Below the pieces are notes generated by a model, which was not told where the DNA came from, ran no database searches, and saw nothing but the letters and a program-made list of their open reading frames with translations. DNA of 64,000 nucleotides, from positions 62,001 through 126,000 of the forward strand of contig JAREWP010000101.1 in the NCBI GenBank assembly GCA_029001845.1. Direction: 5' to 3'. Position 1 is the first letter of the stretch, and the number at the start of each line of letters is the position of its first letter. The translations under genes were made by a program, and so were the position numbers. This DNA is from Candidatus Magnetocorallium paracelense. Lineage in GTDB: Bacteria; Nitrospirota; Thermodesulfovibrionia; Thermodesulfovibrionales; Magnetobacteriaceae. Positions 8,290 to 12,763 of the stretch are shown here, piece after piece.

Positions 8290-9885
8290 ATGTTTAGTTT
8301 TTTTAATAATCTTAAAATAGGCGCTAAGATACAAATAGCGATTTTTACCAATGTCATTTTAGCAATACTTATAGGAGAGTATTTGGTAACAAGAGGCCTG
8401 AACCTTACAGGTGGATCGGGAATAGTCGTTAATTTGCTGATTAACGGTATAATTGCAACTATCTATGGCTTCTTTGCATCTAAAACAATTACAAGACCAT
8501 TACTTAATATCGTTGATATATTAAAAATTATCGCACGCGGTGAAGGAGACCTGACCAGGCGTCTGCCAATCGTGAGTAAAGACGAAACAGGAGAGTTATC
8601 TATAGAATTCAATGCTTTTTTAGAAAAACTTCATGATCTTATTGTGAAGGTAAAGCAGGCAGGAACCAGAGTGGCTTCCGGCAGCAAGGAGTTAAGTGTT
8701 TATTCCGAACAAATCTTGAGCGGCATCACGATGCAAAGTGAAAAAACGGCGCAAGTCGCAGCGTCTGCAACTGAGATGTCCGGTTCTATTGCTGATATAG
8801 CCGCCAATGCTTCGAGTATAGCCGATTCTTCTTCCGTCACTCTTGTCACTGCTCAGGACAGCGCCGGAGTTGTCGATAAAACCGTCAACGAAGTGAATAT
8901 CATATCCGATTCTGTTTCAGCCTCATCCATGATCATAAAGACATTGGGAGAACGTTCCGCCCAGATCGGAGAGATCGTCAATGTAATAAACGATATTGCA
9001 GACCAGACAAATCTGCTGGCTCTCAATGCAGCGATAGAGGCTGCAAGAGCAGGAGAGCAAGGCAGGGGATTTGCCGTTGTAGCTGATGAAGTGAGAAAGC
9101 TTGCAGAAAAGACGGCAGTTGCAACGACAGAAATAACAGATATGATAAAGGCCATACAAAATGAATCGGAAAAGGCTATAAAGTCGATGAGCGAAAGCCG
9201 TGAGAGTGTGAATTCCGGTGTTGAATTTTCTGTTCAGGCAGGGGAAGCATTACAGAAGATTGTAAGCACTATCAATGAATTTCAAACAATGGTCAATCAG
9301 ATAGCCACATCTACCGAGGAAATGACAAACGTATCGGAACAGATACATAGCGATATTGAAGGCATCGCAACAGTGTCTAATGATAACTCCTCAAAAATAG
9401 ATCAAATGTCTCACTCTCTCTCAGACCTCGCTGTTTATTCGGAAAATCTGCTTCATCTTGTCGATCAATTCAAATTGAATGAAGGCTTCTTGCAGTGGAA
9501 TGAAGAATTAAGTGTAAACATAGGTAAAATAGATTCACAACATAAGACAATCGTGGGAATGATAAATGATTTATATCGCTTAATGGAGACAAATGACGAT
9601 AAAGGCAAAGTCAGGATAATCAACGGTATGGTCGAATATGTCGCCAATCACTTTCGTACGGAAGAGGCATTAATGAAGACACATTCATATCCGGAATATG
9701 AAATGCACAAAAAAGAGCATGATCAATTGACAAAGGAAGTATTAGGTTTTCAAAAAGATCTAAATGAAGGAAAAACCATTCTATCCTATGACCTTTTGGA
9801 TTTCCTGAAGAATTGGTTGTCTGAGCATATTCTGGGCACAGACAAAAAATACGGACCTTTTTTAAACGAGAGAAATGTTTATTAA
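8290..9885 (+). CDS. Methyl-accepting chemotaxis protein with C-terminal hemerythrin domain
   Basis: A 531-residue chemoreceptor. Two membrane segments (about 10-32 and 46-66) enclose only ~13 periplasmic residues, so the sensor is not periplasmic. HAMP follows (about 67-120), then the MCP signalling domain with the hairpin tip near [20 protein letters not shown] complete bacteriohemerythrin domain (401-531) has ligands H418, H454-X3-E458, H473-X3-H477 and H513-X4-D518, a full diiron set that binds O2 (or NO) in the cytoplasm. The architecture is like Desulfovibrio DcrH without its periplasmic domain. AAGGAG precedes the ATG. Likely role: oxygen taxis. Confidence 0.93.
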
Positions 9886-9889
9886 TATC

Positions 9890-10046
9890 TAACCACTCAG
9901 TTATTAGGCTGAAGACTGAAGGCTGAAGCAAAAAAACAAATGACTTGTGAGTATTAGGCAATAAAAAACTCGATGTTTTATCGATAACGCTTGTTTTACC
10001 TAATAGTCTTCAGCCTTCAGTCTATACACCTATAACTGAGTAGTTA
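9890..10046. repeat. MITE-like inverted-repeat element, family TAACTACTTAG (full copy)
   Basis: The ends TAACCACTCAG (9890-9900) and CTGAGTAGTTA (10036-10046) are inverted copies (10 of 11). Inner arms carry GGCTGAAGACTGAAGG and its complement. It begins 4 bp after the chemoreceptor stop and ends about 28 bp before the ribosome site of the selenoprotein gene, so it may act as the transcription terminator between them. Confidence 0.75.
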
Positions 10047-10087
10047 CCATATGCGTTTACCGTAAACTGCTATAGGAGGTATTTGTG

Positions 10088-10294
10088 ATGAGAAAAAAAG
10101 TGCTTATTTTCGGGAAATCGGGTTGACCTTATACAACAAAGGCCAGGTTGGCTTATAAAGAGAACGGGCAATATATCGATGTAACTTTGACTGCCAAAAA
10201 TATGGATGAGATGCTCAGGTACTCTGAAGGAGCGAGGCAGGTTCCTGTCATTGTAGAAGACAATAAAGTGACTATCGGTTACGGCGGTACATGA
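10088..10294 (+). CDS. UXX-star-type glutaredoxin-like selenoprotein (in-frame UGA = Sec13)
   Basis: A 68-codon frame starts at ATG 10088 with AGGAGGT (10074-10080) at ideal spacing. It contains one TGA at 10124-10126 and ends at TGA 10292. Read with selenocysteine it gives MRKKVLIFGKSG-U-PYTTKARLAY, then a thioredoxin-fold-like strand ending IDV, a VPVIV motif and a final GYGGT. This is the layout of small UXX-star (seleno)proteins: Sec-Pro-Tyr-Thr redox motif near the N-terminus and a cis-Pro VPV. A SECIS-like hairpin follows the UGA. Coding constraint clearly continues across the TGA. The family function is a probable thiol/selenol oxidoreductase, unproven. It lies 36 bp upstream of a hybrid kinase. 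Confidence 0.85.
10124..10158 (+). promoter_or_regulatory. Candidate bacterial SECIS element
   Basis: Immediately after the UGA, TTATA (10129-10133) can pair with TATAA (10154-10158). Near the top, GCC (10142-10144) pairs with GGC (10150-10152) around the apical loop AGGTT. The apical stem starts 15 nt after UGA, and the loop contains the GG/GU feature used by SelB, close to the AGGUCU loop of E. coli fdhF. The match is by eye only. Confidence 0.65.
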
Positions 10295-10330
10295 GGCGTA
10301 TAAAAACCGGCGGTCAGCCGGAACGTAACG

Positions 10331-12763
10331 ATGCATGATATTGGAATATTAATAGTCGAGGACAATGCAGTAATCGCTCTTGATCTGGAAACCCTGCTTG
10401 AAAGAATGGGTTTCCAGGTGCTCGGTACTGCGGAGTCAGGCGAAGATGCTCTTGAAATAGCTGATGAGAAAAGGCCCGGGCTGATTCTTATGGATATTAA
10501 TCTGTCCGGTGAAATGAGTGGTATAGAAGCTGCAGGCAGGATCCGTAACTTTCTGAATGTTCCTGTTATTTTTATTACTGCCTATACAGATGACGACACA
10601 TTCAAAAAAGCAAAAGAAACTGCTCCTTACGGCTATTTATTTAAGCCTTATAATGAGAAAGATTTATATAACACCATAGAGCTGGCTCTGTACAGACATA
10701 AGAATGAGGTCGAAACAAAAAGAAGTTACCACGTGGAAAAGGCGATTAATTCACTTCTATTAAGCTCATTGGAAGATATTCCATTAACTGAACATCTGAC
10801 TCGATTCTTGGATGTTGTGTTTAATATTCCATTCCTTCGGTCTATACGTCAGGCATCTGTATTTCTTCTAGAAAGAAATTCGGATAAGCTTCTGTTAAAG
10901 GCGATGCGTCACAGAGATCATCCGTTGGTAGAGTTGTGTCATTCAATAGTGCATAAGATACGACAGCAATGGGAAATTTCGGAAGTCCGTGAGGTGAGTT
11001 ATATGAAACATGAGAAATCCGAGGAATCGGTTTTCTGCGGAATCTACTCCTATTACAATATACCAATATCATCGAGAAAGGGCTCACTTGGCGTGTTTGT
11101 TGTTTGTCTTGATAATCAATATAACAGGGACAATAGAGACGAAGATTTTTTTCTTGCACTCTCTTATACGCTTGCCGGTATTATTGAACGTGTCAGAGCC
11201 GATGAGTCGATAAAGGAGGCAATGGCGGTTGCCGAAGCTGCAAATCTGGCGAAGAGCGAGTTTATCGCCAATATGAGCCACGAGTTTCGAACGCCTGTAA
11301 ATGCGGTTATTGGCCTGACTGAACTCCTTCTTCTCTCTACCGAAACCTCTGAGAAGCAGAGAAGATATCTTACTATGATCATGGAGTCGGCGACTCAGTT
11401 CACTGAACTTATAAATGACGTACTGGACATTACGAAATTGGAATCCGGTGTAATTAAAGCAGAGAAGACAGATTTCCCCTTTCGAGAGATCATGGAGGAA
11501 ATACTTTCGCCCTTTGAAATCCAGGCCCAAAAAAAATACTTGGATTTCAAGCTTCATATTGACTCCGGCATACCTCTTTTTTTGAGAGGAGATCATAGGT
11601 TTCTTCGACATATTTTAATCAACCTTTTATCGAATGCAATTAAATTTACAGAATGCGGCTCTATTTGCATTGATGTTGAACAAAAACGATCGAAAGGGAA
11701 AAACAGCGAAATTCAACTGCTTTTTTTCGTATCCGATACAGGTATCGGTATCCCTGAAGAGAAAATAGAGACGGTTTTCGAAAGATTTACTCAGGCTGAC
11801 GGCTCTCACTCCAGAAAATACGGAGGAACGGGGCTGGGGCTTGCCATTGCAAAAAAATTTACAGAGCTCATGGAAGGGGATATTGAAATCAAGAGTGAGG
11901 AAGGAAAGGGGACAGCTGTTTTTTTTACAGCTACATTTGATGCTGCGCTTCGAGAGACGGAACAACATACAGCAAAGGCCGGGTCATCAGATTGTCCCGT
12001 CGGCATCGGTGAGATAAGTAAGATACCAAAGAGTATCCTCCTTGTAGAGGATATGCCGATGAATCTTGAAATAGCAAAGGAAATGCTCCAAATAGAGAAT
12101 CATTTCGTTGAAACAGCCTCAAGCGGACCTGAAGCATTAAAGCATCTTGAGAACGGTGATTTCGATCTTGTATTAATGGATATTCAAATGCCCGGAATGG
12201 ATGGTTTTGAAACAACGAGAATTATTCGTAACAGCTCTGACAGTACCTATAAAATAAGAAATCGTAAAATCCCGATTATTGCCATGACTGCCCATGCCAT
12301 GAAAGGGGATATGGAGAAATGCATAGAAGCTGGTATGAACGGATATTTATCAAAGCCAATTAGTTTTAAAAAGCTTTCCTCTGCGATTCACGGACATATA
12401 CGAGCAGAACAGGAAGAGAATAATGAGGTCGGTGATCTGATTTTAGACAGAGAGGGCGCCCTTATGAGACTGGCGGGGAGGGAGAATTTACTTTTTGATC
12501 TCTACGATTTTTTTATAACAGGCGTTCCGTCAAATATTGAGGCTTTAAAATCAGCGATAGAAAATGATGATGCAGTCACTGCAGAGCGCGAAGCACATAG
12601 TCTTAAGGGCGCTGCCGCTAACATAGGCGCCATTTTAATGAGAAAGGCAGCGGCAGAGACGGAAGCTGCCGCTAAAAGCGGCAACCTGTCGGAAACGCGA
12701 CAAAGGTATGAAGGTCTGAAAAAGGAACTTGAAAAAGTGTTGAAAGAAATAAGAATACGATAA
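10331..12763 (+). CDS. Hybrid histidine kinase, REC-GAF-like-HisKA-HATPase-REC-Hpt
   Basis: Soluble 810-residue phosphorelay protein. It runs: N-terminal receiver (5-120, Asp55); a region of about 135-290 that looks like a GAF fold; a coil; HisKA with ANMSHEFRTP (phospho-His317); an ATPase domain with DTGIGIPEEK and GGTGLGLAIAKK; a second receiver (about 572-695) with LMDIQMPGMDG; and a C-terminal Hpt domain with AHSLKGAAANIGA. It contains every step of a multistep relay except the final output. The stop codon TAA lies inside a perfect hairpin, and a lone receiver follows 105 bp downstream, a plausible phosphate acceptor. It is preceded by the selenoprotein gene, and redox input is possible but unproven. 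Confidence 0.92.
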   Translation: MHDIGILIVEDNAVIALDLETLLERMGFQVLGTAESGEDALEIADEKRPGLILMDINLSGEMSGIEAAGRIRNFLNVPVIFITAYTDDDTFKKAKETAPYGYLFKPYNEKDLYNTIELALYRHKNEVETKRSYHVEKAINSLLLSSLEDIPLTEHLTRFLDVVFNIPFLRSIRQASVFLLERNSDKLLLKAMRHRDHPLVELCHSIVHKIRQQWEISEVREVSYMKHEKSEESVFCGIYSYYNIPISSRKGSLGVFVVCLDNQYNRDNRDEDFFLALSYTLAGIIERVRADESIKEAMAVAEAANLAKSEFIANMSHEFRTPVNAVIGLTELLLLSTETSEKQRRYLTMIMESATQFTELINDVLDITKLESGVIKAEKTDFPFREIMEEILSPFEIQAQKKYLDFKLHIDSGIPLFLRGDHRFLRHILINLLSNAIKFTECGSICIDVEQKRSKGKNSEIQLLFFVSDTGIGIPEEKIETVFERFTQADGSHSRKYGGTGLGLAIAKKFTELMEGDIEIKSEEGKGTAVFFTATFDAALRETEQHTAKAGSSDCPVGIGEISKIPKSILLVEDMPMNLEIAKEMLQIENHFVETASSGPEALKHLENGDFDLVLMDIQMPGMDGFETTRIIRNSSDSTYKIRNRKIPIIAMTAHAMKGDMEKCIEAGMNGYLSKPISFKKLSSAIHGHIRAEQEENNEVGDLILDREGALMRLAGRENLLFDLYDFFITGVPSNIEALKSAIENDDAVTAEREAHSLKGAAANIGAILMRKAAAETEAAAKSGNLSETRQRYEGLKKELEKVLKEIRIR

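Follow-up and report, generated by a model that had tools for sequence, protein, structure and literature searches.

A glutaredoxin-like gene of UXX-star family 1 with two probable selenocysteine codons in Candidatus Magnetocorallium paracelense

Gene model and family

In the 64,000-nucleotide stretch of Candidatus Magnetocorallium paracelense DNA analyzed here (the window), comparison with profiles and homologues points to a complete gene at positions 10088-10303 of the + strand, encoding a 71-residue glutaredoxin-like protein with two selenocysteine (Sec) residues, each of whose UGA codons is accompanied by a hairpin of its own. We put the probability of this reading at about 0.88. The predicted coding sequence opens with an ATG at 10088, 8 nt downstream of the ribosome-binding site AGGAGG (10074-10079), as the earlier note on this DNA had described; the ribosome-binding sites of homologues are comparably purine-rich. 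Translation through the first TGA (10124-10126) gives MRKKVLIFGKSGUPYTT..., in which the predicted Sec13 lies within a U-P-Y-T motif (codons 10124-10135) at the glutaredoxin nucleophile position. The earlier note had recognized this read-through, a good catch from a single sequence, and both the Sec-Pro-Tyr-Thr motif and the description of a small glutaredoxin-like protein stand (Pfam Glutaredoxin PF00462, 32.5 bits against a gathering cut-off of 22.9). It had also ended the protein at GYGGT, with one Sec, and here it has to be amended. The TGA at 10292-10294 very probably encodes a second residue of this kind, Sec69, and the frame beyond it reads TGA-GGC-GTA-TAA, so that Gly-Val and the probable true stop, TAA 10301-10303, follow (10295-10303) and the C-terminus becomes Sec-Gly-Val-stop. 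This corrected 3' end is our main result.

The protein almost certainly belongs to UXX-star family 1 with two Sec. Read to the second TGA, it scored 101.9 bits with the NCBIfam model NF041114, "UXX-star selenoprotein family 1" (cut-off 72), in agreement with the earlier family assignment, and 75.3 bits with the subfamily model NF041212 (cut-off 66). Where the earlier note had placed the stop, the NF041114 match had reached position 68 in a profile of 70, a hint that the protein continues; when the genome was searched with the same profile, the match (91.4 bits) covered positions 1-70 with 2 TGA codons inside it. Both the motif and the two Sec of this family are already in the literature, as is the family itself, and the window gene is a new member. 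A 2022 review has the entry "Distant Grx-like protein 1" with the motif UxxT (PMC9312934). In a 2026 review (PMC13188914) the family appears under NF041114 as "Distant Grx-like protein 1 (UXX-star selenoprotein family 1)"; the motif given there is UxxT and the number of Sec is two, against one for UXX-star family 2. The name "UXX-star" itself suggests a C-terminal tail of Sec, two residues and a stop. With a score above the curated cut-off, a UxxT motif, two Sec and a C-terminus of the form Sec-X-X-stop, the window protein is an ordinary member of family 1; its N-terminal residues are slightly divergent, and we found no difference that sets it apart. UXX-star family 2 (NF041211), family 3 (NF047338) and the HUGP/GUXX-star fusion (NF045501) have related glutaredoxin-like domains, but the window protein misses their cut-offs by a wide margin (42.4 of 100, 41 of 97 and 45.1 of 325 bits, respectively). 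With classical glutaredoxins (PF00462; E. coli Grx1, PDB 1ego/1grx, is a distant sequence match) it shares the fold at the family level, the N-terminal nucleophile position, and the VP and GG motifs. Unlike them, it lacks the second active-site Cys (UPYT), is shorter, and carries a Sec tail at its end. A standard gene call would leave nothing of this gene, or only a fragment; the claim that ordinary annotation would miss it nevertheless holds only in part, as curated NCBIfam models of the UXX-star family exist.

Conservation of the two UGA sites and of the 3' end

The family was found above the cut-off in 58 of the 230 genomes of the class, nearly always with two in-frame TGAs. We read 62 loci in the class, the window copy included, and a script paired both sites in 59 of them; as the script demanded Sec at the C-terminal site, the 59/59 there is conditional. 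At the first site, 57 of these 59 have TGA and the other two Cys (L023 and L024; TGC, TGT). Among the three loci outside the script's set, L028 and L082 have the C-terminal TGA and L081 is frameshifted before that site, which brings the second-site TGA to 61 of 61 class loci with a readable C-terminus. Outside the class, the phylum contributed 21 further loci, 20 of them readable, and the second-site TGA is present in 20/20, including one (L097) with Cys at the first site. Three relatives thus have Cys in place of the N-terminal Sec, and all three retain the C-terminal TGA. The earlier note had named homologues that consistently stop at the first UGA as evidence against a selenoprotein; what we found there is nearly always TGA or Cys, with reading continuing beyond it. 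No other Cys occurs in 53 of the 59 proteins, and the window protein is among the 53. In L023 and L024, hairpin 1 is altered (a broken pair or a changed loop), which is what one would expect of a hairpin made superfluous by Cys at the first site. L028 has TAA in place of TGA at the first Sec site, and the same genome has a second, divergent copy (L083). L028 and L081 may be damaged copies, whether genuinely decayed or misassembled.

The codons after the second UGA also look like coding sequence. In the 43 genes that share one length, the stretch from one UGA to the other had mean entropies of 0.60, 0.58 and 1.46 bits at the first, second and third codon positions; the two codons after the second UGA gave 0.37, 0.54 and 1.83, then 0.16, 0 and 1.76, and past the true stop this three-base pattern was lost. 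The arrangement TGA-GGN-GTN-stop occurs in 50/59 family genes, compared with 0/107 control open reading frames that end in TGA. The codon that closes the tail in homologues is variously TAA (25), TGA (18) or TAG (14). Consequently, in 18 of the 59 homologues (L030, L040, L041, L043, L045 and others) the Sec TGA and the probable stop TGA are 9 nt apart. In those 18, the hairpin loop would lie about 18 nt from the Sec TGA and about 9 nt from the stop TGA; the published minimum spacing from UGA to loop is 16 nt (PMC13188914). Hairpin spacing alone would decide which UGA is recoded in such relatives.

Hairpins, selenocysteine machinery and competing gene models

A SECIS-like hairpin lies downstream of each UGA. 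Hairpin 1 (10140-10154, + strand) folds as AGGCC-AGGUU-GGCUU, and the hairpin with an AGGUU loop reported in the earlier note was recovered as its core, GGCC-AGGUU-GGCU, with the loop starting 18 nt past the UGA. Hairpin 2 (10307-10321, + strand), CCGGC-GGUCA-GCCGG, lies 3' of the stop, with its loop 17 nt past the second UGA. The published rule for bacterial SECIS elements calls for a loop of 3-9 nt, a stem of 4-16 bp, a G within the first two loop positions, a spacing of 16-37 nt, and a minimum free energy (MFE) of at most -7.5 kcal/mol (PMC13188914), and the window hairpins satisfy it at both sites. However, 111 of 176 control stops pass the same rule minus its energy term, which makes it weak alone. 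The window hairpins are unexceptional by themselves (z -0.3 to -1.5), and a hairpin as good as hairpin 2 follows 11% of control stops. Because the window hairpins alone are of weak significance, support for them as candidate SECIS elements comes from the homologues. At site 1, two stem pairs that link synonymous third positions covary: one is CG, TA or AT in 55/57 sequences, the other GC, AT, GT or TA in 52/57, and either count was matched by 0 of 2000 shuffles, although the shuffles ignore relatedness. At site 2, the homologues have a median hairpin score of 16.1 vs. 6.5 in controls (p about 5e-21) and a median MFE of -10.2 vs. -4.9. A similar, strong hairpin, CCGACAGUUCUGUCGG, follows the UGA of the SelD gene in the same genome.

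We also considered hairpin 2 as a transcription terminator and rejected it: the + strand lacks a T run after the stem, only the - strand was flagged in the scan, and no gene on that strand was seen that the hairpin could serve. An Rfam search of 9900-10500 gave nothing but a RAGATH-25 match that scored far short of the cut-off.

The machinery for Sec insertion is present in the genome. The earlier note had named its absence as evidence against a selenoprotein, and all four components were detected: tRNA-Sec (74.6 bits, UCA anticodon by alignment), SelA (613 bits), SelB (363 bits) and SelD (338 bits). The SelD gene (locus L020) has an in-frame TGA of its own, and with its strong hairpin this implies at least one more selenoprotein gene in the genome. 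Within the class, selA occurs in 203/230 genomes and in 53/58 family-bearing genomes (counted from lists), so that co-occurrence there says little. In the sample of the phylum outside the class, the family and selA occur together in 17 genomes, the family without selA in 4, selA without the family in 3, and neither of them in about 205 (this last figure reckoned from the listing; p about 3e-19). Among the nine family-bearing genomes without selA, tRNA-Sec was found in seven and selB in G217. One 99% complete genome (G107) has the gene and tRNA-Sec, with selA and selB undetected. In another (G248; 96% complete, 430 contigs), the gene has two TGAs, and selA, selB and tRNA-Sec all went undetected. 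These two cases may reflect assembly gaps, contaminating contigs or divergent machinery.

These data bear on two other ways of reading the locus. A protein with a single Sec, in which UGA 10124 is recoded and UGA 10292 is a real stop after GYGGT, would fit a second hairpin that is unexceptional in the window and a kinase gene that begins close downstream. Against it stand the TGA-GGN-GTN-stop arrangement and its absence from control reading frames, the codon-type entropy that persists for exactly two codons past the second UGA, the second TGA, which all readable homologues have, those with Cys at the first site included, and the NF041114 model, which spans the tail positions of a family published with two Sec (PMC13188914). 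We regard a single Sec as very improbable. Less probable again, to the point of being negligible, is a decayed glutaredoxin pseudogene with two nonsense mutations. The locus does contain two in-frame stops in the standard code, and damaged relatives exist (the TAA at the first site of L028 and the frameshift of L081); however, TGA stands at both of these codons in dozens of genomes, codon-position constraint is strong, and the ribosome-binding site is intact. Conservation already refutes the pseudogene reading, and we retain the gene with two Sec codons.

Genomic neighborhood and proposed chemistry

Downstream, in the same direction, a gene for a REC-HK-REC-Hpt histidine kinase begins with an ATG at 10331. 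The domain make-up given in the earlier note was correct, but its distance of 36 bp shrinks to 27 nt once the coding sequence ends at 10303. With a gap this short, the selenoprotein gene and the kinase may be co-transcribed in this genome. The earlier note went further and saw a hint of redox input to the kinase. A redox sensor that feeds the kinase from within one operon would suit the 27 nt gap and the shared direction; the neighbors of homologues, though, vary from genome to genome, and such a kinase is nowhere a regular one. Read by eye from their sequences, they are various and mostly unrelated (nucleotidyltransferases, ComF-like, RecN-like, NagA-like, M16-peptidase-like and GGDEF proteins, among others). 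Because the flanking genes differ in this way, a functional link is not supported, and we consider it a distinctly improbable one. The upstream gene (8290-9885) encodes a chemotaxis receptor with a HAMP domain and a C-terminal hemerythrin domain, likely an oxygen or redox sensor. Just 5' of the selenoprotein gene, the intergenic region holds a large imperfect inverted repeat (9890-10046) with 39-nt arms that are 82% complementary and 79 nt apart. When the protein was compared with a collection of viral contigs, no relative was found; a protein scan of the genome contig collection gave one short match only, and a phage comparison gave only short matches, inside the chemotaxis receptor.

In the mechanism that we propose, SelB and Sec-tRNA-Sec would insert Sec at UGA 10124 and UGA 10292, under the direction of a separate hairpin for each, with the loop 17-18 nt downstream and the second hairpin lying past the TAA. 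The substrate would be attacked by Sec13, the nucleophile in UPYT, and the intermediate resolved by Sec69 from the short tail GGT-U-G-V. As a small reductant, the protein would then shuttle between two states, a reduced diselenol and a diselenide that joins Sec13 and Sec69 within the molecule, with Sec69 standing in for the missing second Cys of CxxC and possibly for glutathione. In the sequence, a Sec occupies the nucleophile position, the motif lacks a second Cys, and the C-terminal Sec is near-invariant. The GG motif, which here stands just before Sec69, lies at the glutathione site in glutaredoxins, and this would place Sec69 near Sec13. A single-sequence AlphaFold2 model of the protein was poor (pLDDT 52). 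From residue content and homology to glutaredoxins, we give an intramolecular Sec13-Sec69 redox couple a little less than an even chance. More tentatively, the Sec tail could be a built-in substitute for glutathione, and the protein a very small, self-contained diselenide oxidoreductase.

The chief rival to the Sec13-Sec69 mechanism is binding of a metal or metalloid (e.g., Hg or As) by the two selenols, in which case the protein would act not in disulfide reduction but as a chaperone or scavenger. The 2026 review raises this for the UXX-star family, whose Sec may be metal ligands or contact unknown substrates (PMC13188914), and the window protein, which has no Cys, offers its two selenols as the sole thiol-type residues. 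However, no metal-resistance gene was seen among the neighbors (ten or so clusters, read by eye), and Sec13 occupies the glutaredoxin nucleophile position. We consider metal binding rather unlikely, and the redox couple remains our preferred mechanism.

What the locus means for the family lies largely in its second UGA, which was taken for a stop even by a careful reader who had caught the first Sec. As the family illustrates, a terminal UGA can be a coding one where two codons, a stop codon and a SECIS-like hairpin come after it. The relatives in which a Sec UGA and a stop UGA lie so close together are a ready-made natural experiment on the spacing rule for UGA recoding, and a protein of 71 residues with two selenols in place of any thiol would be a clean system for diselenide chemistry.
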